Virus record (IMG/VR): IMGVR_UViG_3300045970_000313
Location: 1-37,272 of that record
Strand: one strand, 5' to 3'
DNA: 37,272 nt
DNA from: a virus
The position numbers and the translations under genes were made by a program. Shown here one piece after another: positions 12,699 through 33,427 of this stretch (positions are counted from its first letter, which is position 1; every line of letters starts with the position of its first letter). The notes under the pieces are model-generated. The model had not been told where the DNA came from. It worked only from the letters and a program-made list of their open reading frames with translations, and ran no database searches.

Positions 12699-13160
12699 TT
12701 ACCCCCCTGTAATTATGGTGTGGTTCTGGTTATCTTCCTGGTGTGACGCCAGCAGGTCGTATTCGTCGGTAAATTCGCGCTCGGCCTCTTCCACCGTTCG
12801 GGCGGTGGTCGGAAAGATCACCGTCAATTCCGTATCGGCGTGTGCAACAAAAACCTGCTTGCGCCCGCCGCTGGCCGGGATCACGTTGCAGCCCTGCAGC
12901 TCCCTGGTTTCTTCACCGATATAAACGGTTGTGTGGCCTGTCACAATCAACAGGGTGGCAACCTTTATCAGCGCCCCGGTCAGCACGACGCCTGCCGGTA
13001 TGGTTATGGATCGCGCGTACATGCCGCCGTGGATCACGTGGCGGGTTTCAATGTTCACCTGGGGCATTTTCAGCATTTCGGATTCCAGGCGACGGACCTT
13101 TTCAATGGCCGCGCCGATCATGGCCGGGATGCTGGTATGCTGTACGATAAGATCAGGCAC
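12699..13160 (-). CDS. Cupin-like late protein, unknown role
   Basis: A 153-residue protein with GTG start at 13160 overlapping the stop of the acetyltransferase gene. A short helical N-terminus is followed by beta-rich sequence with cupin-type spacing (HVIHGGMYARSITIPAGV, then VATLLIVTGHTTVYIGEETR and TELTVIFPTTAR). The C-terminus is acidic (EEAEREFTDEYDLL). It may be a structural or assembly protein in the gp13 region of T7-like phages. The metal ligands of catalytic cupins are not clearly present. Confidence 0.5.
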   Translation of the reverse strand: MPDLIVQHTSIPAMIGAAIEKVRRLESEMLKMPQVNIETRHVIHGGMYARSITIPAGVVLTGALIKVATLLIVTGHTTVYIGEETRELQGCNVIPASGGRKQVFVAHADTELTVIFPTTARTVEEAEREFTDEYDLLASHQEDNQNHTIITGG

Positions 13161-13605
13161 CGGCGAACCCCTTGAAAAAGATCAGATTGGTATTGTTGTA
13201 GCCTACATGCGGCAGCAGTTCGGCCAGCGGGCCGCCCACTGGTGCGCTTATCAGCAGGCCAGCGGCCCCGGTTTCCCTGGCGTACTCTTCTGCCAGGCGC
13301 AACAATTTCAGCCCGGCCCCGGTGTGGCGGTATTCGCGCGCCACAAAGTACGATTCTGTCGTACATACCTTGACGCCGTAATGTGGCAGGACCGACGACA
13401 ACAGCAGGCAATATCCCATTAACACGCTATCCCGAAACGCTCCCAGGGGTTGCATGATCCCGGCGGCCTCCAGGGCGCGGTAGGTTTCCACCTGTGGCAC
13501 CGGCTGCGGCATACCGGACAGGGCGGACTCTGCGGCGTACTCCACCAACAGGCCGGGCAGGTTGGGTGCCTGTTCCAGTTCGGCTATGCTGCACATTCTA
13601 ACCAT
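13153..13605 (-). CDS. GNAT-family N-acetyltransferase
   Basis: A 150-residue protein with the acetyl-CoA binding motif A of GNATs: VAREYRHTGAGLKLLRLAEE (RxxGxG/A pattern followed by a helix), then LLISAPVGGPLAELLPHVGY as the usual strand-helix end. It overlaps the end of tail tubular protein B by eight bases. GNATs between tail tubular and internal proteins occur in several podovirus genomes; the substrate is unknown. Confidence 0.75.
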   Translation of the reverse strand: MVRMCSIAELEQAPNLPGLLVEYAAESALSGMPQPVPQVETYRALEAAGIMQPLGAFRDSVLMGYCLLLSSVLPHYGVKVCTTESYFVAREYRHTGAGLKLLRLAEEYARETGAAGLLISAPVGGPLAELLPHVGYNNTNLIFFKGFAGA

Positions 13606-15790: not shown

Positions 15791-16342
15791 TTAACCCCTC
15801 ATGAACAGTAGGCTGGATTCGGGGAGTTCGTCGGGCGGGTCCTCCAGTGAATCAACGGACCGGGCCAGGCGCAGTATTTCCTTGTAGGCGTCCCAACAGG
15901 CTGATTGCTGACTGGTGGATTGCGTCATGGGATAGGCCAGCTTGGCGGCCAGGTGTCCGGCCATGGCGTCGCAAAAGAGTGCATCGAAGCGGGCCGGGTC
16001 CTCGATCATGGCGACGTAGCGCAGTGAAAGGCTGGTTTGATTGCAGAGGATCGCGCCGGACTCCTGTTTGTAGTCGTCCACGTCCAGCGCTTCCAGGGTG
16101 CGCAGCCAGTCGCCGGGCAATGGAAAGGCTTTGGTGTAGCCAAAGGCCGGGGCGGTCCCGGATGCGGCCAGCAGGGCGCGCTTGATGGCAAAGTTCCAGG
16201 GGTGGCTGCGCAGGGTGGCGCGCAGGACGATATCCCAAAAGGCGGCGGCGCTCCTGGCCTGCTGTGTCTCGTTCAGATCCTGCACCGGGGCGATACCCAG
16301 GGAAACCAGGGCGCTGTTGATGATGTCAAGTTTTGTGCTCAT
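15791..16342 (-). CDS. Tail tubular protein A (T7 gp11-like)
   Basis: A 183-residue protein beginning MSTKLDIINSALVSLGIAPV, the typical opening of gp11-type gatekeeper/adaptor proteins, with LRSHPWNFAIKRALLA and FPLPGDWLRTLEAL further in. T7 gp11 is 196 residues. ATG 16342 is chosen over an upstream Met because it aligns with the family start. It overlaps the small frame upstream by 17 bases and is followed by tail tubular protein B. It joins the portal to the tail nozzle. Confidence 0.85.
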   Translation of the reverse strand: MSTKLDIINSALVSLGIAPVQDLNETQQARSAAAFWDIVLRATLRSHPWNFAIKRALLAASGTAPAFGYTKAFPLPGDWLRTLEALDVDDYKQESGAILCNQTSLSLRYVAMIEDPARFDALFCDAMAGHLAAKLAYPMTQSTSQQSACWDAYKEILRLARSVDSLEDPPDELPESSLLFMRG

Positions 16343-16472
16343 TGGCTGGCTCCACTTCAAACAGCAGTACGATTTTGTAACCCTTGCGCTTGGCTGTCCG
16401 CACTTCCCCGGCTATGATCCGCCCCACGTAGGTTGTGCCGTCGGGCGTTATCAGAACTGATTTGTCACTCAC
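16326..16472 (-). CDS. Small late protein, unknown (48 aa)
   Basis: A short reading frame from GTG 16472 filling the gap between the aspartyl protease and tail tubular protein A: it overlaps the protease stop at one end and the next start at the other. The product (SDKSVLITPDGTTYVGRIIA..., ending FEVEPANEHKT) looks like a small beta protein with a basic centre (RTAKRKGYK). GGAG overlaps the start itself, so the exact start is uncertain. No family recognised; support comes from the tight fit and protein-like composition. Confidence 0.5.
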   Translation of the reverse strand: MSDKSVLITPDGTTYVGRIIAGEVRTAKRKGYKIVLLFEVEPANEHKT

Positions 16473-16878
16473 TCCAATAGATGCGCCGGTTTTTCCAGTC
16501 CAGGGTCAGGGTCATGCCTGACAGGAAATCCAGCCCCAACATACCCCTGGCCTGCCGGTTGGCGCTGTAATCCATGATATTGATGCGCAGGGCGGCGCGG
16601 GTCATACTGCTGGCTGCCAAACTATCCATTACTGCGGAACAGTAGGGTACGGCGCTGCCGTCCGCCATTTGCGCTTGGCCGCTGCCGCTGCAGGCGGTGA
16701 TACCCAACTGGTCGGCCAGACTGTCGTCAATGGTGGTTACGCTGGCCCCGGTATCAACGGCCATGGGTGCGGTAACGCTGCGCCCTTGGTAGGTGATCGT
16801 TACCGGAACGACGATTTGAGCAACGGCAGCGGCGGGGATCGGCAGGCACAACAGGATTAGCAGCAACAGATATTTCAT
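16465..16878 (-). CDS. Exported retropepsin-like aspartyl protease
   Basis: A 137-residue protein with a Sec signal peptide (MKYLLLLILLCLPIPAAAVA) followed by a single retropepsin-type lobe: VDTGASVTTID with catalytic D42-T-G-A-S, a flap-like MADGSAVPYC, and the closing ARGMLGLDFL hydrophobic-hydrophobic-Gly motif at about 110-119. Such enzymes act as dimers. It starts directly after the stop of another signal-peptide protein and precedes tail genes. The heptapeptide YSANRQA (104-110) also occurs in the repeat protein two genes upstream. Export to the periplasm and protease activity are strongly suggested; the substrate is unknown. Confidence 0.8.
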   Translation of the reverse strand: MKYLLLLILLCLPIPAAAVAQIVVPVTITYQGRSVTAPMAVDTGASVTTIDDSLADQLGITACSGSGQAQMADGSAVPYCSAVMDSLAASSMTRAALRINIMDYSANRQARGMLGLDFLSGMTLTLDWKNRRIYWSE

Positions 16879-17616
16879 TTAGTACCTCGTATAGGCCGGG
16901 GTTGGTGTGAAGGAAAAGGCGCGGCTAAAGTCGCGGGTGGTGCCGGTCGGGTCGTGGAAACTGAAATAAATTGTACCGGCCCACAACTGGCTGGTATCCG
17001 CTGCCGGTATGGTCAGATTGAGAACATCCCCCACCAGCTCCTTTGACATAAGCAGGTACAGCGCGGGCCGTACTGCGTACTCGCCATAATCCAGATAGGC
17101 TGCCTTGACGTATATAGCCCACTCTATTTGGGTTACGCCTTCGGTGTAAACGGATGTGGACACTACTGTACCAGAGGGATATCCGTAACCCTCGCGTACA
17201 GGACGTGGAAAATAGGCCCACGGAAACGGCAAGGACTTACCGTTGTAGGAATAAGACGGGTCCCAGGAAACAAGGGTAATTACTCCGGTGGTATTATTTT
17301 GTCGTTCGATAATCGTCGCCGCGTAATCGGCCATGAACCAGCCGGGTTCATCGGACCGGAACCAGGCCGTTATTTCCAGGCCGTTCAGGTCCACGCCTTC
17401 GACGGTGTACCTCTCAAAATAGAATGGCCAGTCAGCGCCGGGAGGAAAGGGCTTAAATGTCCCTTCTACTGCTGCCAGCGGCGGCAGCGCCCCGCAACTG
17501 TCGAACAGGTCGGGTGTCGAAACGATGGTTATCGTCGGCGGGCGGTTGCTGATTGTCAGGCTTTCGGCCTGGGCCGTGCTTGCCAGCAGCAGTATGCAGA
17601 GTAACAGGCGGATCAT
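16879..17616 (-). CDS. Secreted protein of unknown function
   Basis: A 245-residue protein with a clear signal peptide (MIRLLLCILLLASTAQAES, likely cut after AQA). The mature part is beta-rich with many aromatic residues (GADWPFYFERYTVEG, SLPFPWAYFPRPVREGYG). ATG 17616 overlaps the previous stop (ATGA), and the protease gene follows immediately. It is the middle member of three consecutive exported proteins inserted between the fibre-like gene and the tail genes. I do not recognise the family; an adhesin-like or host-surface role is possible. Confidence 0.7.
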   Translation of the reverse strand: MIRLLLCILLLASTAQAESLTISNRPPTITIVSTPDLFDSCGALPPLAAVEGTFKPFPPGADWPFYFERYTVEGVDLNGLEITAWFRSDEPGWFMADYAATIIERQNNTTGVITLVSWDPSYSYNGKSLPFPWAYFPRPVREGYGYPSGTVVSTSVYTEGVTQIEWAIYVKAAYLDYGEYAVRPALYLLMSKELVGDVLNLTIPAADTSQLWAGTIYFSFHDPTGTTRDFSRAFSFTPTPAYTRY

Positions 17617-18227
17617 GGCGTAATCGGCGGCGCTACGGTTACGGTCCCGGCGGCTCGGTATTTACGTTTACCGCTGGCGTCGATATGCAGCAGGTCCCAA
17701 AACCCGCTAGTGCCGGAAAGGGCCGTGGTCTGATCGGCGGATAGCGTAACCTTGGATTGTCCGGCAGCGGCGTTGACGATAGGTGTCGAATAGGTGGCAA
17801 AGATCGCCCCGCCAGCACTTGGGCGGTATTGCGCGTAAAAGGTTGATCCGGTGATATCCACCGGGGACCCGGCGGCGTTGGTATGCAGCAGGGCCAGTTC
17901 ATAATGCGCGCCCGCTATCATGTGGATATCGAAGGCGGTCGGCATGTTGTCGAACTGGCTTAACCCGGTTATCTTGCTCTGTATGCTGGAGGTGTAAGCG
18001 GTGAAACGGGCAGCGGTCAGGCGGGTGTTTATGTCGGCCTGCCGGTTGGCGGAATAGCTGTTGAAACGGGTCTTGGTCAAGCGGGCATTTATGTCAATCT
18101 GCCGGGCGGCGGAATAGCTGCTGAATTTGGGTTGCTGGACGTAATAAGTTTTATCGGTGGGCGCGGGCCAGGCGGCCAGGGCGGTTGCCAGGATCAGCCC
18201 GGCGGCGAATAAGACAAGTCGTTTCAT
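17613..18227 (-). CDS. Exported repeat protein with fibre-like C-terminus
   Basis: A 204-residue protein: signal peptide (MKRLVLFAAGLILATALA), then 20-residue repeats at 35-54 and 55-74 (FSSYSAARQIDINARLTKTR / FNSYSANRQADINTRLTAAR) with a decayed third at 75-90, then a beta domain (about 105-200) of a type seen in phage tail fibres and baseplate proteins (ELALLHTNAAGSPVDITGST, GFWDLLHIDASGK). ATG 18227 was chosen because it begins the signal peptide and has GGAGAGGG upstream. A Sec signal on a putative fibre protein is odd. Contains YSANRQA, shared with the protease. Confidence 0.65.
   Translation of the reverse strand: MKRLVLFAAGLILATALAAWPAPTDKTYYVQQPKFSSYSAARQIDINARLTKTRFNSYSANRQADINTRLTAARFTAYTSSIQSKITGLSQFDNMPTAFDIHMIAGAHYELALLHTNAAGSPVDITGSTFYAQYRPSAGGAIFATYSTPIVNAAAGQSKVTLSADQTTALSGTSGFWDLLHIDASGKRKYRAAGTVTVAPPITP
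17958..18125 (-). repeat. 60-bp coding tandem repeat (two full copies and a decayed third)
   Basis: The DNA for residues 35-90 of the exported repeat protein consists of about 60-base units, two clearly similar (with CGGGC..TTTATGTC..CTGCCGG blocks in plus orientation) and a third diverged. Each unit encodes F-x-x-Y-S-A-x-R-Q-x-D-I-N-x-R-L. Repeats of this size can expand or contract in frame. Confidence 0.7.
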
Positions 18228-18238
18228 AAACCCTCTCC

Positions 18239-18817
18239 TTAGATAACCAGTTCCTGCCAGGTGCCGTTGATTCTTACGTATTGCTTGCCGTCGGCTGGTG
18301 CATCCCATAGCAGTGTCCGGTTGGCGGGCGGCTGCATCTCTTCTAGGCAGATAACCCCGTTTGTTGCTATGATCGTGTAGAATCTGCCGTTGCGGTAATC
18401 CCCTACTATGGTCGGTAGAAAAGTGGGATAGGGGCCGGGGACTTCCTCCAGCGCCATTACTCCGTTGGTGGCTATCACCTGGTAATAGATACTGCCGGTC
18501 GTATCCTTAACGATTGTCGGTATGCTGCCGGTGGCGTCCGCCACCTCTTCCAGGCCGATTGCGTTATCCCTGGCTATGACCTTGTAAAACAAACCGTTGC
18601 TGCTGTCCTGAAATGGATAGTTCGTGCCGCTGATTATATCCAGCCCCAAGTCTGCGGCGGTCAGGCCGTGGGGATTGCCGGTTTCCTGGCGGTGCTGGTC
18701 CAGCTCCACCAGGCGGGTTTCAATCTCTGCATGGGCCAGGGTGCCGATATCCTGCAATGAATTGTGACTGACAAGGATCGTCTGCCATTCTCCATTTATC
18801 CAAACCTGTTGCGCCAT
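18239..18817 (-). CDS. Head- or tail-fibre-like protein with internal repeats
   Basis: A 192-residue protein. HRQETGNPHGLTAADLGL at 42-59 is the HxxTxNPHxxT-DxGL motif found in phage fibre proteins. Three repeats follow at about 75-92, 109-126 and 145-161 (GLFYKVIARDNAIGLEEV, SIYYQVIATNGVMALEEV, GRFYTIIATNGVICLEEM). The N-terminus (VWINGEWQ) and C-terminus (VRINGTWQ) echo each other. It follows the decoration-type gene and a strong hairpin. AGGG lies upstream of ATG 18817. It may be a capsid fibre or an adsorption fibre. Confidence 0.6.
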   Translation of the reverse strand: MAQQVWINGEWQTILVSHNSLQDIGTLAHAEIETRLVELDQHRQETGNPHGLTAADLGLDIISGTNYPFQDSSNGLFYKVIARDNAIGLEEVADATGSIPTIVKDTTGSIYYQVIATNGVMALEEVPGPYPTFLPTIVGDYRNGRFYTIIATNGVICLEEMQPPANRTLLWDAPADGKQYVRINGTWQELVI

Positions 18818-18839: not shown

Positions 18840-18863
18840 GGGCCGGGGATCGCTCCCCGGCCC
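18840..18863 (-). other. Strong intercistronic RNA hairpin after the decoration gene
   Basis: A perfect 10-bp inverted repeat (GGGCCGGGGA, four-base loop, TCCCCGGCCC) lies between the stop of the 179-residue gene and the fibre-like gene. There is no T-run after it in the direction of transcription, so it is more likely an mRNA-stabilising or attenuating structure than a full terminator. Confidence 0.7.
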
Positions 18864-18871
18864 GGCCTGCT

Positions 18872-19411
18872 TTAGTCGTTCAGTACATAGGGAATCCAGG
18901 CGGTCAAGACCTGGTTGGCGGCAATCCCGGCACCGGCCACGGTTCCGATTACGTCAACCTCGGCGGTGGTTTTGAGTACGGCACCGGCGGCTGCGAAGGC
19001 TTCCAGCGCCAGGCTGCCCGCCGTGGTGATCGAGGTAGCGGCGATAAACGCGGCGTCGCTGCCGGTAACTCCGATTTTGAGCGTGGACGATGCTGTGCCG
19101 TTAGAAAAATAGCACTTACCGCCCAATACCGGCGTTGCTCCGGCGGGCAGTTTGCCAAAGAAAACGATATCACCGACGCTGCCGACGCTGGCCCCCTGGG
19201 TATAGGTGCCTCGGAAAATACGGATACGTCCGCCAAGCTGCGCGGCGCTGTTCTTTACCGGCGGGGTGGATACATAGGCGTTGGTGTATTCCGCTGCATA
19301 CACGTTGGCACCGGCGCAGGGATCGCGGCGGGTGAAGGCCGGGGCGCTGCCGGTGAAGGCGGCCACGGCAAAGGCGTACAGGGAAATAAGGAAGTTGAAA
19401 ATAGTTTTCAT
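18872..19411 (-). CDS. Capsid decoration-type protein (candidate)
   Basis: A 179-residue protein with a hydrophobic N-terminus (MKTIFNFLISLYAFAVAAFT) followed by SAPAFTRRDPCAG and a beta/alanine-rich body. It lies directly downstream of the major capsid gene, separated by a GC hairpin, with GAGGT upstream of ATG 19411. Position suggests a head decoration or capsid-stabilising protein. The motif TRRDPCAG (27-34) resembles motifs near the N-termini of the capsid and scaffold proteins. The N-terminus also resembles a signal peptide, which would be unusual for a capsid protein. Confidence 0.5.
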   Translation of the reverse strand: MKTIFNFLISLYAFAVAAFTGSAPAFTRRDPCAGANVYAAEYTNAYVSTPPVKNSAAQLGGRIRIFRGTYTQGASVGSVGDIVFFGKLPAGATPVLGGKCYFSNGTASSTLKIGVTGSDAAFIAATSITTAGSLALEAFAAAGAVLKTTAEVDVIGTVAGAGIAANQVLTAWIPYVLND

Positions 19412-19463: not shown

Positions 19464-20414
19464 TTAAGCGGTTTCGTCGCACATGATCTCGACAACGCCG
19501 GTGTCCTGGTTACGGACGGCTCCCAGGGACTGCATGGAATACACCTGGACCGGAAAACCACGCTTGGACTTGTTGACGGATACATCATTGATGATATCCA
19601 TGCCGCAACCCAGGGTAACGTAGTCTTTGCCGTAGATGTAGCAGGCGCGGTTGTTGCCGGACTTCGGCAACAGTTCGGTGCGTATCCACTTCATACCCAT
19701 GAAGGTATCAACCTGGAAGTTCTGCAGGGCGCGCAGCGTGTTGTAATCGCTGCTGGTTACGGTGGTGTCGGCCATCAGCTTTGTCAGCTGGTTGGCGGTG
19801 TAGAGGAAAAAGCGTTCGCCGCCCTCTTCCGGGCTGGATGCCTCGGCCTTGTTCAACAGCTCGATTGCGGTACGGATTTTTGCCAGGGTAATGTTGGTGC
19901 CACCTACAGCCACCTTCTGGCCTGCCGGAAGTGCCACGTACTGGCTGGTGCCGCCGTTGCCAACGCCGGTCTGCTCACGGGCGTTGCCCCCCAGGGCTGC
20001 GATAATGAGGCGGTCTTTCTGGCGGTTGTGGGCCGATACCGCGCCGGTGACATACTTGTTGGTGGGGTCGGTCAGAATTTTCAGCTTGTCGAAACTGTCG
20101 ATGTAGTCGAACCAGTCGAAATCTGCCAGGTCAACCCACCGGCGGGTATGCGGGCTGTTGACGCTCTGCAGGTCCTGGAAGCGGGTTGTTACCTGGGATG
20201 CCTCGGTGGTGCCGATGAAGTCCACGGCAGCCGATGCGCCGACGATGCCGCACATTTCAATAACGGTCGGCTGCAGGCGGCTCTGCGTCTGCTGCATTGC
20301 CAGGGTTACATCATCAGCGTACTTGTTGACGAAATGGTTGGGCACCTGGTCGCCGCCTGCGCGGGGATCGGTACGGGTGAAGAGGACAAACGCGGCCAAG
20401 ATTCTGTTTTTCAT
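19464..20414 (-). CDS. Major capsid protein
   Basis: A 316-residue protein with the features of HK97-fold capsid proteins of podoviruses: after a short N-terminus, VNKYADDVTLAMQQTQSRL, FIGTTEASQVTTRFQDLQSV, a WVDLADFDWFDYIDSFDKLK segment, DPTNKYVTGAVSAHNRQKD and a C-terminal GCGMDIINDVSVNKSKRGFP. It follows the scaffold gene after a 148-base untranslated gap, the gap expected before a highly expressed gene, with GGAG upstream of ATG 20414. The N-terminus is unusually hydrophobic (MKNRILAAFVLF) and leads into TRTDPRAG, a motif shared with its neighbours. Confidence 0.85.
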   Translation of the reverse strand: MKNRILAAFVLFTRTDPRAGGDQVPNHFVNKYADDVTLAMQQTQSRLQPTVIEMCGIVGASAAVDFIGTTEASQVTTRFQDLQSVNSPHTRRWVDLADFDWFDYIDSFDKLKILTDPTNKYVTGAVSAHNRQKDRLIIAALGGNAREQTGVGNGGTSQYVALPAGQKVAVGGTNITLAKIRTAIELLNKAEASSPEEGGERFFLYTANQLTKLMADTTVTSSDYNTLRALQNFQVDTFMGMKWIRTELLPKSGNNRACYIYGKDYVTLGCGMDIINDVSVNKSKRGFPVQVYSMQSLGAVRNQDTGVVEIMCDETA

Positions 20415-20562: not shown

Positions 20563-21372
20563 TTACGCTCTCGTCGCCTTGTAACCCTTGCTGTATGCTT
20601 CATTTACCTTGCGTACCGCGTCGGCGTGGCCGGGGTCGGTCTTGTCAAGGTATGCTTTCGATGTGCGCAGCTCGTCGATGCTTTCCGCTGCCGCGCCCTG
20701 CATATCATTGGCCGGACGATCCTCTTTCAAATCCCCGCCTACTGCCGCCAACAGCCGGATAATAACCGGGTCGTTGGCGTACTTGGGGTTGTTCAGCGCT
20801 GCGGCCAGGTCTGCGTCTGTTGCGGTATAGGCGGCCAGGGCTGTTTTGGCGGTGCCTATGTTCTGTTCGTACTGTTCGCCCCAGGCGGTTTTCAGTGCGG
20901 CCTGTCCCGCCTGATATCCTGCCTTTTCAATCTCCAGCCCTGCCGCCAGTCGTTCGCCAAAGGTGGACATGACAACCTGCACCTGGGCGTTGGTCAATCC
21001 TGCAGCGTGGAACTTACCCATAATCGGCTGCATTGCTTCCTGGTTCGCTTCCATGCCTTCCGGTAGGTATGGTTCCAGCTTGTATTCATCCGCCGTCTTG
21101 GGTGGCAGGTCGCCGGTGCCGAAACGTTTTTCCAAATGGGTATAGCTCTGCCCCATTTTCTCGACAATGGCCTTGAAATCCGGCTGCCCGTCCTGCCCGG
21201 CAACCATGAACTTATCCGGTACTGCAAAGGGCTGCGGGTCGCCGCCTACCGGTGGATCACCCAACAGGGTTGGATCAGCGGCGGGTGGGTCGCCTGCTGG
21301 TGGATCGTCCCCGGCGCGTGGATCGCGGCGGGTGGGGAATACGGGCGCACTAGCGTTATCCGTTCTGTGCAT
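20563..21372 (-). CDS. Capsid assembly scaffolding protein
   Basis: A 269-residue acidic, helix-rich protein preceding the major capsid gene, as gp9 precedes gp10 in T7. The N-terminus is proline/aspartate-rich with repeated DPPAGDPPAADP-like segments; the middle (KAIVEKMGQSYTHLEKRFG, PEGMEANQEAMQPIMGKFHA) is typical of phage scaffolds; the C-terminus is basic (KVNEAYSKGYKATRA), as needed for capsid binding. It carries TRRDPRAG at 14-21. ATG 21372 has GGGGG just upstream. Confidence 0.8.
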   Translation of the reverse strand: MHRTDNASAPVFPTRRDPRAGDDPPAGDPPAADPTLLGDPPVGGDPQPFAVPDKFMVAGQDGQPDFKAIVEKMGQSYTHLEKRFGTGDLPPKTADEYKLEPYLPEGMEANQEAMQPIMGKFHAAGLTNAQVQVVMSTFGERLAAGLEIEKAGYQAGQAALKTAWGEQYEQNIGTAKTALAAYTATDADLAAALNNPKYANDPVIIRLLAAVGGDLKEDRPANDMQGAAAESIDELRTSKAYLDKTDPGHADAVRKVNEAYSKGYKATRA

Positions 21373-21850: not shown

Positions 21851-22048
21851 TTACTGTTCGGGTGTGCCTGCTCTCTGCATTATGTAAAGAATGACGCTGC
21901 GCGCCCCTTCGTTGAAACTGGTCTGGTGCGGGTCGCCCTGGACGTAACTCTGGCAATCGTGATACCTGGCGGCCAACTCTTCCAGGATCGCCACGCCGTC
22001 GCCGTCCTGCTGAAATACCCGGTTATAGATTGCATCCTGAATACTCAC
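21851..22048 (-). CDS. Bbp19-like small structural protein
   Basis: A 65-residue helical protein (VFQQDGDGVAILEELAARYH, then HQTSFNEGARSVILYIMQRA) matching the general pattern of Bbp19-type phage proteins found next to portal genes. It starts at GTG 22048, overlapping the portal stop (GTGA), so its synthesis is coupled to the portal. Confidence 0.55.
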   Translation of the reverse strand: MSIQDAIYNRVFQQDGDGVAILEELAARYHDCQSYVQGDPHQTSFNEGARSVILYIMQRAGTPEQ

Positions 22049-23685
22049 GCCATACCCTCCATGGCCGGGGCCGGACCAGTGGCCGCGCCTTTCATCATTT
22101 CTTGCTGCTGTGCCTGCTGCTGCGCCTTGGCGGCATTGTCGGCACGGACCTTGCGCAGTTCTTCAACCCGCTTGGTGTCCACGATCAGCCGGGCCGGGAC
22201 GCCTAACAACTCGCCCCGGTGGCGGGCGGCTTCGTCCAGGTCGTAATTGTCCATGACCAGCGGCGGCATGTTGGCGACGGCCTGGGCCTGGGCCTGGGCA
22301 AACAGGGACTGTTCGAAGCGGTCCATACTTGCCACTTCCTCCAGCTTCTGCGCGCGGGCCAGCGGTCCCTGGAACTGGAGCTGCAGGTTGTTGCCCTGTG
22401 CATCCTGGGGCAGTTCTCCCAATATCCCCTTGCGGAAGGCAATCCAGAAACAGCGCCAAACCAGGGGTATCAGGTATTCAGACTGGATGCGGCCAAACAT
22501 GGGGCCAAGCAACTGACGAATGAGGTTGACGCGGTAGTGCCATTCCGTGGCGGTCTTGGCCGGTCCTTCGGTATTGGTTTCCAACAGGTCGGCCATCATA
22601 ATGCGGCGGATACTCTTCTGCAGGTCGGCCACCAGCAACTGCGACAAATCGAACTGCCCGCCCGGCTGCAGTGGAAAGAAAGAATCTTTCGACGCCATCA
22701 TTACAATCTTACGCGCCCCGATGCGGACCGTCTTTGGATTGATAACGCCATCATCAACCGCGCCCCACATACCGGCTATTGCCATATCCGCATTGGCAAA
22801 GGTCAGGCGCTTGACTTCGTTCAGGCTCTTGATATCCGGCAGCGCGCGGGAAAGCGGACCCTGTGCATAGACGGAACCGGGCAGTTTCAGCCATCGCGGG
22901 AAAACCAGCGGAAATTCATGATAGCCGGAATCCCGGCAGATATTCTTGCTGTCAACTTCAACGTGCATGGATGCGAAAGGCAGCAGCTTATCCTTGACGC
23001 GGGCCTTTTTCTGCTCCGGGTCTTTCTCCCTGGGGAAAATGGCCTGCACAAAGTTGAACAGGGTATAGGGCTTTTTCTCCAGCGCCTTCGTGATCCGGCT
23101 TGAAACCTTATCCGCGCCGTACTCTTTTACGGCCTGCTGTGCCGTCAGGCTGAACTGATAAAAGACCGTATCCACCAGGCCATCACGCGTGGACGTTGAT
23201 ACCCAACACTGCGCCAGGGGCCACAACTCGAAATGAAAGGTGGTGTCCGTTCCCTCTTCCACGTACAGCGCACACTGTCCGGCAATGGCCGCGTCATACA
23301 TGGCCTCATAGGCCGGGGCGTCGTAGTTGCTGGCGTGTATCTCGGCGTGTACCTTCGTACAGGCTTCATCCAGCCAGGTATCCAGGGCGTCGTTTTTGTT
23401 CTCGGACTTGTAGCCAAACCAGCGGGAATTTGCCGGGGTCAGGTTGGACACCAGGGCCGATGCCACCAGCCCGGCGGAATCATCCCCGGTTGAATCATAA
23501 AGTTTTGCGGTAGCTGCTGCAGCGGATGATTGAATTGTATCAGGGGTAAGTTGCTGGCCGGACGTGGCAAACATCATGCCGCGTATGGGGTTGGTGAATT
23601 GGTAGCACTCGCGTATGTGGGCTTCCAGCGGGGCACGGCGGCTTTTCAGGTCAGACAGTTTTCTGGTGATATCCGCGCCGTTCAT
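22045..23685 (-). CDS. Portal (head-to-tail connector) protein
   Basis: A 546-residue protein opening ITRKLSDLKSRRAPLEAHIRE with CYQFTNPIRGMM, the start of podoviral head-to-tail connecting proteins (T7 gp8 is 536 residues). Later segments include DTWLDEACTKVHAEIHASNY, PGSVYAQGPLSRALPDIKSL and ETNTEGPAKTATEWHYRVNL, the conserved portal signature, and a glutamine-rich C-terminus. ATG 23685 is chosen because it starts the family homology and has GAGAGGG upstream; the frame is open 43 codons further up but that stretch overlaps hairpin and terminator. First gene of the late operon. Confidence 0.9.
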   Translation of the reverse strand: MNGADITRKLSDLKSRRAPLEAHIRECYQFTNPIRGMMFATSGQQLTPDTIQSSAAAATAKLYDSTGDDSAGLVASALVSNLTPANSRWFGYKSENKNDALDTWLDEACTKVHAEIHASNYDAPAYEAMYDAAIAGQCALYVEEGTDTTFHFELWPLAQCWVSTSTRDGLVDTVFYQFSLTAQQAVKEYGADKVSSRITKALEKKPYTLFNFVQAIFPREKDPEQKKARVKDKLLPFASMHVEVDSKNICRDSGYHEFPLVFPRWLKLPGSVYAQGPLSRALPDIKSLNEVKRLTFANADMAIAGMWGAVDDGVINPKTVRIGARKIVMMASKDSFFPLQPGGQFDLSQLLVADLQKSIRRIMMADLLETNTEGPAKTATEWHYRVNLIRQLLGPMFGRIQSEYLIPLVWRCFWIAFRKGILGELPQDAQGNNLQLQFQGPLARAQKLEEVASMDRFEQSLFAQAQAQAVANMPPLVMDNYDLDEAARHRGELLGVPARLIVDTKRVEELRKVRADNAAKAQQQAQQQEMMKGAATGPAPAMEGMA

Positions 23686-23706
23686 GTTTGCCCTCTCGCT
23701 GGCTCT

Positions 23707-23748
23707 CCCGTCCTTCCAGCGTGGGGAGGGGCCGCGCTGGAAGTCGGG
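23707..23748 (-). other. Leader hairpin upstream of the portal gene
   Basis: CTTCCAGCG (23713-23721) pairs perfectly with CGCTGGAAG (23735-23743), extended by CCCG/CGGG across a small internal loop. It lies between the early terminator and the portal ribosome site, in the 5' leader of the late message, with no T-run. It could protect or be processed at the 5' end of the late mRNA. Confidence 0.6.
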
Positions 23749-23778
23749 AGGTTTGCCACATGCTTTGATACGGCCACG

Positions 23779-23812
23779 AAAAAAGCCCCAGGCAGTACAG
23801 GCCGGGGGCTTC
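23779..23812 (-). terminator. Intrinsic terminator at the end of the early operon
   Basis: In the leftward transcript AAGCCCC.GGC pairs with GCC.GGGGCTT (one mismatch) around a seven-base loop, followed by a T-run. It lies about 70 bases past the stop of the last early gene and before the portal gene, so it separates early and late transcription unless read through. Confidence 0.8.
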
Positions 23813-23842
23813 AAGTGACACGTTTCAAATTATGGTTTAATT

Positions 23843-25583: not shown

Positions 25584-26618
25584 CTAGAAAATTGACAGGT
25601 TCATTCTTTGCACAATGCCTGACGTGTGGCTTTCCGTCAGGTGGGTGTACTTCTGTGTCGTCTGTATGGACTTATGACCCAATATCTCCTTGATATCGGC
25701 CAGCGTCGCCCCCTGCTCTGCCAGGTAACTAGCAGCGCTGTGCCGTAAGTCGTGAAAACAGAAGTTCGGTATAGCGGCCTTCTCCAGTGTCTTTTCCCAT
25801 GAATAGCGGAAATCATACGGCTTGCGGGGATCATCCGGCGACGGAAAGAAAAACACCTGGCCGGGCTGGCGCTGCAGATACAAGTCAGACATAAGCTGCG
25901 CAGCTGGGCCGAATAGCCGGACCGTCCGGCGCTCCCCGTTCTTGGTCTGGTCCAGGATCACCCGCCCGGTCTGGTGGTCGTAATCCTCAAAGCGGATATT
26001 GCGAACCTCAGACTTACGCGGGCCGGTGGATAGTGTCACCACAACCAGCGCCGTCATAAACCGGCAGGGTGCCAGCTTGGCATAGAACAGCAGACGGGAC
26101 CGTTCCGCCGGTGTCAGCTTGCGGGTCCGGTTCTGTGTGCCAGGCAAGCGCCATACGTCACGAACCGGGTTTGATTCGCACCATTGCCATTCACGTACCG
26201 CCATAGCGAAACAATGCTGCAGCGCGGCCAGGTAGCAGTTGATCGTACCGTTACCGCGCGGCTCCAGGTCCTTTTTGCCCTTGGCGATAACCGGCGTCGT
26301 CGCTTCCGCCAGGGTCAGTTTGCCGATTGATTCCCGCCAGAACATCAACTGCCCGTACTGGCTGATTTGAGTATTCCGGGCCTTGTGCGGTAGAACCTCG
26401 TCCAGGTACTTGTCAATCATCCCGGCCACCGTGCGGATACTGGCCTGGGTAACAGCTCCCATGGTTCGAAGTTCCGCCCGGTCCTCCATCTTGCGCGCCC
26501 ACCGTTCCGCCTCGCGCTTATTGCGGATGGTCTTTGAAGCGTACAGCCCTTTCACGCGGACGCGGACCCGGTAACGCTTCTCTCCATGCCTGTTGGTTGC
26601 GGTCTTAATGGATGCCAT
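25584..26618 (-). CDS. Second tyrosine recombinase, inside the early operon
   Basis: A 344-residue integrase-family protein: N-terminal arm-binding-like domain (about 1-55, [19 protein letters not shown]), SAM-like core-binding domain (about 60-160) and catalytic domain with R201 (TGPRKSEV), K226 (TKNGERR), H289-x-x-R292 (HDLRHSAAS), H315 (LGHKSIQTT) and Y324 (QKYTHL). All catalytic residues are present. The gene abuts the C39-like peptidase gene with no gap (TAAATG) and is co-transcribed with replication genes on the leftward strand, away from attP. It differs clearly from the integrase at 32297-33427. Possible roles: dimer resolution, excision, or control of a second site. Confidence 0.9.
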
Positions 26619-29987: not shown

Positions 29988-30179
29988 CTATCTCCAAACT
30001 ATTGGAGACGGGTTATTCACAAGCTTTGCGGGGTTTTCAACAGACTTATCCACAGGCCGGGCGGCCTTTTTCGGGGGTGGTTCATTGGCAAATTCAAAGC
30101 TGTAATATTCCGGGCGGTCCACCAGGGCGGTAACGGCAAAACAAGCGAAAATCAGTAAGAACAGTTGCCAGTTTTTCAT
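29988..30179 (-). CDS. Small membrane or exported protein (63 aa)
   Basis: A 63-residue protein with an N-terminal hydrophobic helix (KNWQLFLLIFACFAVTALV) and a proline/lysine-rich tail (NEPPPKKAARPVDKS). Start at ATG 30179, overlapping the stop of the upstream 42-codon gene, with GGGAGAGAG before it. Single-pass membrane anchor or uncleaved signal. Function unknown. Confidence 0.6.
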   Translation of the reverse strand: MKNWQLFLLIFACFAVTALVDRPEYYSFEFANEPPPKKAARPVDKSVENPAKLVNNPSPIVWR

Positions 30180-30304
30180 TGTCTCTCTCCCTCGTTCTGG
30201 TTGATGGGTGCCACCATCGCCATCGGCGGAAGCTGGCAATGCGGACAAACGCAGTCTGTAAACTCTGATATCCACAAATGCAGGCGCTCACACATAAATT
30301 TCAT
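30176..30304 (-). CDS. Small cysteine-containing protein (42 aa)
   Basis: A 42-residue frame from ATG 30304 to TGA 30176. Its start overlaps the upstream stop and its stop overlaps the next start, both as ATGA, so it fits exactly between two genes. The product (MKFMCERLHLWISEF..., CVCPHCQLPP) has a CPxC-like pair and could bind zinc. It also contains the ribosome site for the following gene. Confidence 0.55.
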   Translation of the reverse strand: MKFMCERLHLWISEFTDCVCPHCQLPPMAMVAPINQNEGERQ

Positions 30305-30477
30305 GGCTTGCGCGCCCTGGCCCGCTCGATCACGCCCCGGTTGTGTTCCTTGCGCTGTTCTGCCGGGGCCGTGAACAGTTGGCGGAGCTGCTCCGTAACA
30401 ATCGGGGCCGCCTGGCGCTCCAATAGCAAGCGGATTGCGCGCAGCTCTTCAATCATGGCCTGCTCGAACTCGCTCAT
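30301..30477 (-). CDS. Small early helical protein (58 aa)
   Basis: A 58-residue charged helix (SEFEQAMIEELRAIRLLLER) with a basic C-terminus (RGVIERARARKP). The start at 30477 is set by the ATGA overlap with the CII-like gene; the frame is open much further upstream but that part is antisense-like shadow of the CII-like gene. Function unknown. Confidence 0.6.
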   Translation of the reverse strand: MSEFEQAMIEELRAIRLLLERQAAPIVTEQLRQLFTAPAEQRKEHNRGVIERARARKP

Positions 30478-30866
30478 TCGTCCGCCCCCATGAACTTGAA
30501 CACATTGGTAATGCTGCGGTGATCGTGGCGCAGCTGCTCCACTTCCACGCGCAGCGCGGCCAGCTCGGCCTGCATACAGGTGACAACGTGCAGGGACGGA
30601 TACCCGCGCTTGAGCAACAGCCACGAAAGCGGAACCTCGTTTCTGCAGATATCCATCAAGGCCGTTTCTTTTTCGTGGGGGAAATGGCGCCGACTGTCGC
30701 CGCCGGTCGTACCTATCATCTTTATGAAATGGGAATATTCGATATGCAGCGCCCCGGCAACCGCCTTTGGCGGCAAGCCGGACAGCTTCACACAAGCGGC
30801 CAGGGCGGCGCGCTTGTCGGGGATCACCTGTATGAATGAATCGTTAATGGTAAGTAGACCAGACAT
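30474..30866 (-). CDS. CII-like phage regulatory protein (candidate)
   Basis: A 130-residue protein: an N-terminal helical region with an HTH-like order (GLPPKAVAGALHIEYSHFIK), a conserved-looking middle (NEVPLSWLLLKRGYPSLHVV) and a C-terminal coiled-coil helix (QAELAALRVEVEQLRHDHRS) for oligomerisation. This layout and its place after the Cro-like gene fit the regulatory CII group of temperate phages. The ribosome site lies in a 16-base element (30872-30887) duplicated upstream of the previous gene. Confidence 0.55.
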   Translation of the reverse strand: MSGLLTINDSFIQVIPDKRAALAACVKLSGLPPKAVAGALHIEYSHFIKMIGTTGGDSRRHFPHEKETALMDICRNEVPLSWLLLKRGYPSLHVVTCMQAELAALRVEVEQLRHDHRSITNVFKFMGADE

Positions 30867-30871
30867 GATCC

Positions 30872-30887
30872 CGCGCCCCTCCAGCGT
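30872..30887 (-). repeat. Duplicated ribosome-site element, copy 1 (copy 2 at 31093-31108)
   Basis: The 16-base sequence ACGCTGGAGGGGCGCG (transcript sense) is identical upstream of the CII-like gene and of the 67-residue gene, and a shortened version (CTGGAGGGGCG) precedes the 55-residue gene at 24874. It contains the GGAGG ribosome site but extends beyond it. Confidence 0.75.
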
Positions 30888-31090
30888 TAAACATTCAACT
30901 CTTTAAATGCTGCCTCAATCGCCTTATATGCGGGGTTGTTCTCTCCAAAGGAGTAAAAGGCCACTGTCCGCATTCCCATAAGGCGTTCTATCTGCACATT
31001 TACCGGGTAAAGATTTGGCAGCCTTTTGTGATTCTCCACAACATCGGCTGCGCTTTCCGCAATCAATTTGTAAATAAGTGATCTTTTCAT
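30887..31090 (-). CDS. Small early protein, unknown (67 aa)
   Basis: A 67-residue helical protein (MKRSLIYKLIAESAADVVEN, ... AYKAIEAAFKELNV). GGAGGGG lies before ATG 31090 within the duplicated 16-base element. It lies between the Cro-like and CII-like genes, where regulators such as antirepressors are common, but no motif supports that. Confidence 0.55.
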   Translation of the reverse strand: MKRSLIYKLIAESAADVVENHKRLPNLYPVNVQIERLMGMRTVAFYSFGENNPAYKAIEAAFKELNV

Positions 31091-31155
31091 AGCGCGCCCC
31101 TCCAGCGTCAGAACTTCGGACTATGGCCCTTACGTTGGCCGGTGTTAACGTGTAA

Positions 31156-31395
31156 TCAGGCGGGTGATTTCTCTTTGGGCGGGTCTGGCACCAGGTCGAA
31201 CACGAGCAAACCCATTTCGATTAATGCCTTTTCGCAGCGGCCATACTCCCCCTGGCCGGACTTTCCGAAAAACTGGCCCTCTACAAACTTTTGAAGGGAG
31301 TTTTTATTTATTTCGTATTTGACAGCCACGCGCTGGACAGCTACACAGCGGTCTTTGATTCGTTCTTTTGTAGCTTCGTGGTTTACAATCAACAT
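31156..31395 (-). CDS. Cro-like small regulator (candidate)
   Basis: A 79-residue protein that is the first gene of the leftward early operon, divergent from the CI-like repressor. The segment KDRCVAVQRVAVKYEINKNS followed by LQKFVEGQFFGKSGQ has a helix-turn-helix layout (helix, EINKNSLQKF recognition helix). AAGGAT lies before ATG 31395. By position and size it should be Cro; sequence evidence is moderate. Confidence 0.5.
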   Translation of the reverse strand: MLIVNHEATKERIKDRCVAVQRVAVKYEINKNSLQKFVEGQFFGKSGQGEYGRCEKALIEMGLLVFDLVPDPPKEKSPA

Positions 31396-31471
31396 GACAA
31401 AATCCTTATTTTGTGCTAACCCTCAAACTGCTATTCAGTTCCGTGTATTTAGTCCCGCACTGTTAAGACTA

Positions 31472-31501
31472 TTATTACACGCAAATACGTGTATCGGTCA
31501 A
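31472..31501 (-). promoter_or_regulatory. Leftward early promoter with an operator in its spacer
   Basis: In leftward reading, TTGACC (31501-31496), an 18-base spacer, then TAATAA (31477-31472). The palindrome TACACG-N6-CGTGTA (31476-31493) lies almost exactly in the spacer, so a bound repressor would block RNA polymerase. Another CGTGTA half-site is at 31442-31447. TATTAT at 31470 could serve a rightward repressor promoter, though without a good -35. Confidence 0.6.
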
Positions 31502-31508
31502 GGGAAAA

Positions 31509-31892
31509 ATGCAAGATTACGTGCAGAAAATAAAAGCCATACTTGACGCCGATAAAACCAAGCTGTCAGATATGGCTGCTAAAACTGGTATTCCGTATAG
31601 AACACTGCAAGACAACCTTAGTAAAAACAAAGGTTTCAGCGTTGACAACCTGGTTAAAATCTGCACGTTTCTACGTGTTTCCTTGGATGAACTTTTAACG
31701 GACAGGTCGGTAGTAAATGAAGATAGCCCCGGTTATTCTTCGGGACCCCTGCCCGATGATGAACGGGAACTGCTCCGGCGATACCGAAACCTGGACACCA
31801 GGCACAAACAAAACCTGCTGGAAATGGCGACGGCATACGGGGCTTTGAGCGTGGGGACGGGGGAAAAGAAAACAGCGGCGGGCGGCTCATAA
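31509..31892 (+). CDS. CI-like prophage repressor
   Basis: A 127-residue protein with an N-terminal XRE helix-turn-helix at about 17-62 (LSDMAAKTGIPYRTLQDNLS, then FSVDNLVKICTFLRVSLDEL) and a short acidic C-terminal part (DDERELLRRYRNLDTRHKQN) with no LexA-like Ser/Lys peptidase domain. Induction by RecA self-cleavage is therefore not expected. It is divergent from the Cro-like gene, preceded by AGGG and a palindromic operator. IPYRTLQD (28-35) is also present in the HTH protein at 23879-24187. Confidence 0.8.
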   Translation: MQDYVQKIKAILDADKTKLSDMAAKTGIPYRTLQDNLSKNKGFSVDNLVKICTFLRVSLDELLTDRSVVNEDSPGYSSGPLPDDERELLRRYRNLDTRHKQNLLEMATAYGALSVGTGEKKTAAGGS

Positions 31893-31934: not shown

Positions 31935-32300
31935 ATGTCCTGGCTAAACGATAATCAGGAGGCAAAAGAATTAAACGAGGCATGGGCCGCGGCAAAAGAC
32001 AAACCAGCGCCATATTATAAACACGAACATTATAATGAATGGCTGGCCGGTGTACTGGTCAGTTTTTTAATTTTGGGATTTATTCTTTATTGCTGCCGAA
32101 AAGGAATTATTGATTATTTTAAAATGCCGAAAGGTGAAAACCCAGGGCGCTATTATGGCATGATGCTTGTTGTGATCGGACTGGCTTCACCAGTAGCACT
32201 GCCGTTCTTTGTGCCTTGGCATGAATCAAGCCTAATATCCGGCACACTTATAGCGGCGGGTGTTATCATCACCATCATTGAAATGGTACGTTGTCAATGA
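31935..32300 (+). CDS. Lysogeny-unit membrane protein (candidate superinfection exclusion)
   Basis: A 121-residue protein with a soluble N-terminus and three predicted membrane helices (about 36-55, 73-93 and 99-117). It lies between repressor and integrase and its stop overlaps the integrase start (ATGA), so it is probably made in lysogens. Its first 17 residues, MSWLNDNQEAKELNEAW, match those of the giant ejection protein, MSWLIDNTEAQTLNEDW, at 12 positions although codons differ. A membrane protein that copies the leading end of an ejected protein is a candidate for blocking DNA entry by related phages. Function is inference. Confidence 0.6.
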   Translation: MSWLNDNQEAKELNEAWAAAKDKPAPYYKHEHYNEWLAGVLVSFLILGFILYCCRKGIIDYFKMPKGENPGRYYGMMLVVIGLASPVALPFFVPWHESSLISGTLIAAGVIITIIEMVRCQ

Positions 32301-33427
32301 GTCTCAACAAGCACCCCAAATACCCCGGCGTATATGAAGCCAGGATTTACACCGACGGGCGGAAGAAAGACCCCAAAACCGGCAAGCCCTCAAATCACCG
32401 TGATACCTTCCTGTTTGAAGGCTCCGACGTGCAGGCGCTGGACTGGTACGCGCAGCTCCTGAAAACCAGCCATAAGGCCGCCGTACCGCTGGCCCCTTCC
32501 CTCTCCCATGCCTGGCCGGACTTCTGCATTTACTACAAAAACAAAACCAGCGAAACCGGCACAACCTACAATGATTTCCTTAAGACCTGGGCGCGGCACC
32601 TTGGCCCCTTCTTCGGCCAGCTCCGCCCCGCGCAAATCACGCCGGGCCTGATTGAATCCTACAAAAACAAACGCCTGGCAGAAACCTACCTGCCCGGCAA
32701 AGTAAAGCAGCTCCCTGCAGACGACACGCCGGATCAGGCCGCCAAGCGCCGCCCCATATCCCGCAAGCGGATCAATAACGAACTCTTCTACCTGTCCGCC
32801 TTCGTAACCTGGATGGCTCAACCTGAAATAAACCTGGCCCTGCCCCTGGGATTCAAGATAAAAGGATTCCCCGCCAAACAGGTTAAAGCAGCCCTGCCCG
32901 TCGTCCCGGATCGCCGGGAAGTCATAGCCCTGCTCCGTGCTGCGGAACGTCCCTACCGGGCCATGCTGTGCGTCTGGTACTACGGTGGCCTGCGTAAGTC
33001 GGAACTGCTGACAATGGAAGGCGCGCGGGTCAACCTGGATCAGGGCTACATGATTATATTAGGCAAGGGCGGCAAGGAACGCGTGGTTCCTATCCATAGA
33101 AAAATCCGTGTCTATCTCCGGCACCACTGGAACCCTACGTTCATGTGGATCAATCCCAAAACAAAAAAGCCCTGGGTATTCCTAACCAGGGCAATCAAGC
33201 GCGCAGCCGACAAAGCCGGAATTGACAAGCGCGTGTACATTCATCTGTTGCGGCACTCATTCGGCACGCACTCAATACAAAGCGGGCTGGAGCTGCGCAG
33301 CGTCCAAATGCTTATGGGACATGAAAATTCAAAGACCACGGAAATATATACCACGCTGGCCGGTCGCTTCCTGGGTGAGCAAATGGAAAAGCTTGGCGGC
33401 AAGTCCATGCACGGCAAAAAACCTTGA
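32297..33427 (+). CDS. int: Integrase (tyrosine recombinase)
   Basis: A 376-residue tyrosine recombinase adjacent to attP. Catalytic residues: R233 (GGLRKSEL), K257/K260 region (GKGGKERVVP), H316-x-x-R319 (HLLRHSFGTH), H342 (LMGHENSKTT) and nucleophile Y351 (IYTT). The core-binding domain is at about 70-185 and the N-terminal domain, with GVYEARIYTDGRKKD, would bind arm sites. ATG 32297 overlaps the stop of the membrane-protein gene; an in-frame TTG two codons earlier is less likely. The gene ends 139 bases before the tRNA-like attP core. Confidence 0.92.
   Translation: MSLNKHPKYPGVYEARIYTDGRKKDPKTGKPSNHRDTFLFEGSDVQALDWYAQLLKTSHKAAVPLAPSLSHAWPDFCIYYKNKTSETGTTYNDFLKTWARHLGPFFGQLRPAQITPGLIESYKNKRLAETYLPGKVKQLPADDTPDQAAKRRPISRKRINNELFYLSAFVTWMAQPEINLALPLGFKIKGFPAKQVKAALPVVPDRREVIALLRAAERPYRAMLCVWYYGGLRKSELLTMEGARVNLDQGYMIILGKGGKERVVPIHRKIRVYLRHHWNPTFMWINPKTKKPWVFLTRAIKRAADKAGIDKRVYIHLLRHSFGTHSIQSGLELRSVQMLMGHENSKTTEIYTTLAGRFLGEQMEKLGGKSMHGKKP

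Follow-up and report, generated by a model that had tools for sequence, protein, structure and literature searches.

A retropepsin and two putative tail-anchor proteins with predicted signal peptides: a candidate exported cassette in a phage with a likely Geobacterales host

The window, that is the whole stretch of DNA analysed, is a virus record of 37,272 bases. It encodes a major capsid protein (19464-20414, PF19821/phrog_3437), a T7-like portal (22045-23814), tail tubular proteins A and B, internal virion proteins, a terminase, a T7-type tail fibre without a signal peptide (33701-35917) and, within a single 37-kb phage, two tyrosine integrases (25584-26618 on the minus strand and 32291-33427 on the plus strand). 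Judged by its capsid, portal, tail tubular, fibre and integrase genes, the phage is podovirus-type and temperate. A slot flanked by the capsid decoration gene and tail tubular protein A holds three consecutive genes, P3, P2 and P1, each with a predicted signal peptide:

18872..19411, minus strand: left border of the slot; capsid decoration-type protein whose hydrophobic leader ends in FTRRDPCAG
18840..18863, minus strand: GC-rich hairpin of 10 pairs, 9 of them GC, between the decoration gene and the slot; a similar one occurs in the phage locus L027
18239..18817, minus strand: fibre-like gene without a signal peptide, weakly matching tail-fibre PHROGs; upstream of the cassette
17613..18227, minus strand: P3, 204 aa; signal peptide, repeats and a BppU/phrog_1084-like anchor domain
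18171..18227, minus strand: P3 signal peptide MKRLVLFAAGLILATALAA, then WPAP; rule-based call on the sequence
17952..18140, minus strand: P3 repeats KFSSYSAARQIDINARL / RFNSYSANRQADINTRL / RFTAYTSSIQSKITGL; predicted to be helical
17619..17948, minus strand: P3 C-terminal anchor domain, residues 94-203; phrog_1084 match, AlphaFold2 model and structure matches
16879..17616, minus strand: P2, 245 aa; signal peptide and a beta-rich region, probably a diverged BppU-like domain
17566..17616, minus strand: P2 signal peptide MIRLLLCILLLASTAQA, then ESLT; looser rule-based call on the sequence
16465..16878, minus strand: P1, 137 aa; a minimal retropepsin domain joined directly to a signal peptide
16819..16878, minus strand: P1 signal peptide MKYLLLLILLCLPIPAAAVA, then QIVV; rule-based call on the sequence
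16741..16755, minus strand: P1 catalytic motif D42-T-G-A-S, conserved in 31 chromosomal homologues and in the viral contig L148
16522..16545, minus strand: P1 second motif GMLGLDFL, residues 112-119, kept in the same 31 homologues and L148
16326..16472, minus strand: 48-aa ORF between P1 and tail tubular A
15791..16342, minus strand: tail tubular protein A (phrog_394, E 4.5e-49); right border of the slot, followed by tail tubular B

The three genes are tightly packed. P3 has a Shine-Dalgarno sequence (AAGGAG) 7 nt before its ATG. P2 has no Shine-Dalgarno of its own and starts within the stop of P3 (a 4-nt overlap, ATGA), and P1 follows directly after P2 with GAGG upstream. By rule, each N terminus reads as a positive residue, then a hydrophobic stretch free of charges and a cleavage site of the AxA type. 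These calls come from a simple rule-based finder rather than SignalP, with a looser version needed for P2. Because the rule returned none among 119 Shine-Dalgarno-supported reverse-strand genes (0/119) and none among 235 genes of major capsid protein relatives with other or unknown hosts (0/235), three signal peptides in a row are not a chance result. The early mature regions carry a net charge of 0 to +1 and are therefore compatible with Sec export. A sigma-70 scan just upstream of P3 gave no promoter-like site, so that late co-expression is the default assumption and expression in the lysogen is not indicated.

A sequence-only reading had described three genes at 18227-17613, 17616-16879 and 16878-16465, each with a clear Sec signal peptide, the last with DTGAS at D42 and MLGLDF, set between fibre-like and tail tubular genes. 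All three ORFs were confirmed, both motifs are correct, and the rule agrees on each signal peptide (for P2 in its looser version). The flanks are also right, with the fibre-like gene 18239-18817 upstream and tail tubular A 16342-15791 downstream; the 48-aa ORF is an addition to that list.

P1 matches the Pfam family PF13650 (Asp_protease_2) over the entire profile (1-90 of 90) with 51.4 bits against a cut-off of 24.3 (E 1.9e-13), and in an alignment with 31 chromosomal relatives it has all the landmarks, namely VPVT, DTGA, ADG, G-x-LG-x-x-FL and the terminal W. On this evidence, P1 is a clan AA retropepsin with intact catalytic motifs. It scored 21.6 bits against TIGR02281 (clan_AA_DTGA), below the NCBIfam cut-off of 57.95, and a PDB sequence search returned chance matches only. 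Retropepsins must dimerise, and the single small domain of P1 therefore implies a dimer, which is predicted here. The family is found in 75 of 141 Geobacterales genomes at identities of 30-40%, reaching at most 40%. Among the 31 chromosomal relatives, 27 have an N-terminal hydrophobic segment (signal or anchor) and extra domains are usual, whereas P1 is a bare domain with a signal peptide. Capture from this host protease family would be the simplest origin of P1, which lies on a long branch of a tree that names no donor.

The clan AA fold with its DTG dyad is common to P1, RloA, PerP, APRc and the Geobacterales PF13650 proteins, and many bacterial retropepsin-like proteases share with P1 a signal peptide or anchor. 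P1 differs from them in lacking the N-terminal extra domains of most chromosomal members and in being phage-encoded within a fixed three-gene unit. In Pseudomonas aeruginosa, for example, the secreted retropepsin-like RloA proteases, which have signal peptides and form dimers, are important under osmotic stress and for biofilm (PMC12239564); PerP and APRc are further bacterial retropepsin-like proteases (PMC4140852). The RloA precedent bears on one alternative, in which the cassette is a lysogenic-conversion or anti-phage module and its exported products, protease and binders, would shield the lysogen or benefit the host in stress or biofilm. The phage is temperate with two integrases, RloA proteases offer a model for such a service, and P1 resembles the PADLOC candidate protein PDC-M08B (E 9.4e-10). 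However, that protein is one part of a candidate system, P2 and P3 (the sole neighbours scanned) gave no PADLOC match, and the resemblance is probably a family relation only and is explained as such. Together with the failure to find a promoter belonging to the cassette itself, this makes the alternative improbable in our view.

P3 can be assigned with more than sequence. An AlphaFold2 model built from six sequences places helices in the repeats at residues 40-52, 60-69 and 72-92, at low confidence, and gives the C-terminal domain a pLDDT of about 80-87. This domain matches phrog_1084 (E 5.3e-16), and P3 also matches L-shaped tail-fibre assembly proteins, weakly. In Foldseek, tail-tip proteins of T5 and DT57C ranked first among the PDB matches of the domain (E 4e-8 to 7e-7), ahead of immunoglobulin-like domains, and the viral-library matches include a protein with a BppU N-terminal domain. 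By sequence and modelled fold, the P3 C-terminal domain is a BppU/phrog_1084 tail-fibre anchor, having both in common with BppU-type and T5 tail-tip anchors (PDB 7qg9 chains L and J; 8hqz chains Q and T; phrog_1084 and phrog_3304). Where annotated, the phage proteins with those anchors are tail proteins, a comparison made on annotation, whereas P3 has a signal peptide.

P2 is harder to place. On its own it had no match in PHROG or Pfam. Its L148 homologue matches phrog_1084 (E 0.0015), and in hhalign the P2 family aligns with the P3 family over the corresponding segment (P 0.0012, with a probability of just 19%); HMMER gave no significant direct match between P2 and P3 (E 0.12). P2 is probably a diverged BppU-like member. 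Structure prediction, which the sequence-only reading had proposed for all three proteins, succeeded fairly well for the P3 domain and poorly for P2, whose model from one sequence has a pLDDT of 37 and is useless.

The strongest evidence that the three genes work together, and that their signals matter, is that order and signals are kept in two phage types. L148 (IMGVR_UViG_3300050132_000196) is a 4.2-kb viral contig that was reached only through an alignment of P1 with its chromosomal homologues. Its genes run baseplate wedge-like, hub, baseplate-spike-like, then homologues of P3, P2 and P1 (identities of 51%, 31% and 47%, the last over the full length), then a late transcriptional activator. 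All three genes, their order, their overlapping ends with coupled starts and a signal peptide on each are common to the two phages. L148 differs from the window in its contractile-type tail region, in its baseplate hub, spike and late-activator neighbours and in a P3 with fewer repeats. Since a phage of a different type has all three genes in order, the cassette, on this comparison, is real and common to two phage types. The sequence-only reading had tied its proposal to the existence of a homologous cluster in related phages; close relatives have none, and L148 has the whole cassette.

Searches with single sequences returned no match for P1, P2 or P3 in viral contigs or for P1 in genome contigs, and tblastn in INPHARED found no match for P1, P2 or their L148 versions. 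Two other matches of the P1-family alignment, L149 and L150, were set aside as their gene contexts are unrelated. The pair alignments of P2 and of P3 had no match in a sample of 395 genomes across the phylum, a negative that carries no weight for that sample. Neither exported morons among tail genes nor secreted retropepsins of bacteria are new as kinds. INPHARED and the literature searched contained no case of an exported retropepsin locked to exported anchor-like proteins across phage types. The occurrence of such an apparently exported set in the window and L148, two unrelated phages, would imply an envelope-directed function that has been selected as a unit.

The slot in which the cassette sits is variable. 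It holds genes of 351 and 107 aa in contig L002 and one 112-aa gene in L027 and L029, while in L030-L032, L033 and the more distant L066 a lone small gene with an evident signal peptide occupies it; in relatives with other hosts it holds several genes, none with a signal peptide by the same rule. The nearest relatives thus hold other genes in this position, which makes the cassette accessory-like. A P1-type protease is missing from 29 of the 30 related records or genomes searched, the lone match being a gene on another contig of the Oryzomonas genome. A comparison of the window's fibre-like gene with the gene in the L027 slot gave no support for homology.

The sequences nearest to the window are L002, by a capsid protein of 83% identity, and, by a tail tubular B of 60%, a prophage of Oryzomonas japonica Red96, a member of Geobacterales. 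Relatives of tail tubular B are present in 9 of 141 Geobacterales genomes, and with the Red96 prophage this makes a Geobacterales (Geobacter-like) host likely for the window phage. Phages of this host group carry leaders on a range of late proteins. For instance, of six Geobacterales prophages that could be read, four encode a Mu-like major capsid protein with a full Sec-type signal peptide (L110, L111, L112 and L113, from genomes G139, G066, G045 and G037; the leader is absent in L109 and L114). Each of the four has a strong Shine-Dalgarno sequence and a common type of linker, LPLIGIGGLIVN, whereas the homologues of Pseudomonas phage H70 and Alteromonadaceae phage B23 have nothing ahead of the homologous region. 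At the ends of tail modules, a spike-like gene in G066 (L141+L143, reverse complement 30075-31808) has a signal peptide and a fibre-like gene in G045 (L139, 10438-11751) has a lipoprotein-type signal. Podovirus capsid, scaffold and decoration proteins have hydrophobic leaders. The sequence-only reading had called an exported protease module in this position unexpected, on the ground that virion proteins normally stay in the cytoplasm. The module is supported. The premise behind it, that virion proteins carry no signals, fails in this host group, where signals are frequent on major capsid, spike and fibre proteins.

Signal-like genes number 34 of 350 in Geobacterales phage regions against none of 235 in the relatives (Fisher p 1.6e-8), a value that overstates the enrichment because the 350 include lysis genes and some flanking host genes and the genes of related phages are not independent. 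Lysis genes normally carry signals. The Mu-like capsid cases stand on their own, apart from this statistic. The habit is not universal, since HK97-type capsid proteins (PF05065) in the same genomes have no leader in the loci readable in the printed orientation. No papers on signal peptides of Geobacter phage capsid proteins were found in the open-access literature.

Signal-bearing homologues of P3 occur in four Mu-like prophage copies, three of them in a single Geobacterales genome and the fourth in a second one. Downstream of them runs a series of genes that are nearly all signal-bearing, although not every gene is present in each copy: a tail-fibre-like protein (phrog_9729, E 1.4e-13), a second such protein, small CxxCH proteins, a cysteine-rich protein and a large spike-like protein. 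The small proteins carry CWTCHG or CSTCHG, a c-type heme-binding motif, for example at L105 12627-13028 and L107 reverse complement 13032-13418. Maturation of the CxxCH and cysteine-rich products would depend on the periplasm, which supports true export of these runs; that P3 homologues head them is a point for the envelope reading of the cassette.

A signal peptide alone is no proof of a non-virion role, given that virion proteins of this group also carry leaders. P3 and P2 could be virion appendages that follow the group's leader habit, maturing in the periplasm and joining virions at lysis, or with leaders that bring assembly to the membrane, and P1 could be their processing protease. We rate this as somewhat unlikely. 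It would be in keeping with the capsid, spike and fibre signals and the leaderless Pseudomonas and Alteromonadaceae homologues, with the enrichment, and with the small signal-bearing genes that L031, L033 and L066 have in the same slot. A protease absent from 29 of 30 relatives is, however, not general to such assembly, and the separate T7-type tail fibre means that the cassette is not the phage's only fibre. In addition, P1-P3 differ from the window's own capsid and decoration proteins, whose leaders are either shorter or have RR after them, so that translocation is less likely there.

A further possibility is that the signal-like N-termini of P1-P3 are not used for export at all, and act as hydrophobic leaders for translation or for membrane tethering of assembly. 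Leaders on scaffold genes and perhaps on one terminase, both of which need the cytoplasm, would fit. The AxA-type sites of P1-P3 without strongly charged flanks and the mostly signal- or anchor-bearing cellular P1 family speak against it, and we consider it very unlikely.

With regard to the window's own leaders, scaffold (20563-21372), major capsid (19464-20414) and decoration protein (18872-19411) have a common N-terminal motif, FTRxDPxAG. The shared motif differs between phages (LTIADLGAR in L031; also L027, L002 and L033), and it is probably selected at the protein level since synonymous codon differences are found in most. Cleavage of this leader by P1 was rejected as a general explanation, as relatives with the motif lack P1.

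The reading that we favour, at about even confidence, is that P3-P2-P1 is an exported accessory cassette that acts in the envelope. The translationally coupled genes would be passed between phages and their products exported through Sec in the late programme. P1 would then likely dimerise in the periplasm after signal removal and cleave a protein there, with P3 and P2, built on a fibre-docking tail-tip domain, likely acting as its binding partners. The target is the least certain part and might be an envelope or surface receptor, or the fibre of an arriving or newly released phage; equally tentatively, the net effect may be that re-adsorption or superinfection is stopped. Several points weigh against this envelope reading: virion-building proteins here also bear leaders, such that export need not mean non-virion; other phages have the anchor domain in their virions; no promoter-like site stands just upstream; and P2 was modelled poorly.

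Lambda Lom and phi80/N15 Cor are exported or outer-membrane morons near tail genes. Like them, the cassette is signal-bearing, accessory and placed in a variable slot among the structural genes of a temperate phage, whereas the Cor/Lom-type morons are single genes with no protease and no tail-anchor domains, and no sequence relation between the two is known. Cor inactivates FhuA (PMC11436027). Envelope remodelling or a block to reinfection, as the sequence-only reading had proposed, would be plausible for the cassette, and that reading survives in outline.

A broader proposal is that Geobacterales phages routinely send late virion proteins (capsid, spike, fibre and decoration-slot proteins) to Sec or the inner membrane, with surface parts matured or assembled at or beyond the membrane and the cassette as one elaboration. 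We consider it rather unlikely. The leader habit itself may be the larger discovery. In the textbook view, tailed virions are built from cytosolic proteins, and canonical signal peptides on tailed-phage capsid proteins contradict it. If the capsid signals are functional, they would point to a categorically new assembly or display route; if not, there should be a strong and as yet unexplained reason for them.

Three smaller observations concern other genes. In L107 (reverse complement, 18431 onward), a large-terminase-like ORF has a signal-like N terminus, MALHLNPLRLALFAIVFFFALGAIKPDYLLA, with AGGTGA upstream, although an internal start is possible. Outside the structural block of the window, a short ORF on the minus strand (29988-30275) has a signal-like or membrane-anchor N terminus, MKNWQLFLLIFACFAVTALVD. 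An acetyltransferase-like gene (phrog_1249) lies amid the tail genes of the window at 13153-13605, and L002 has one too.
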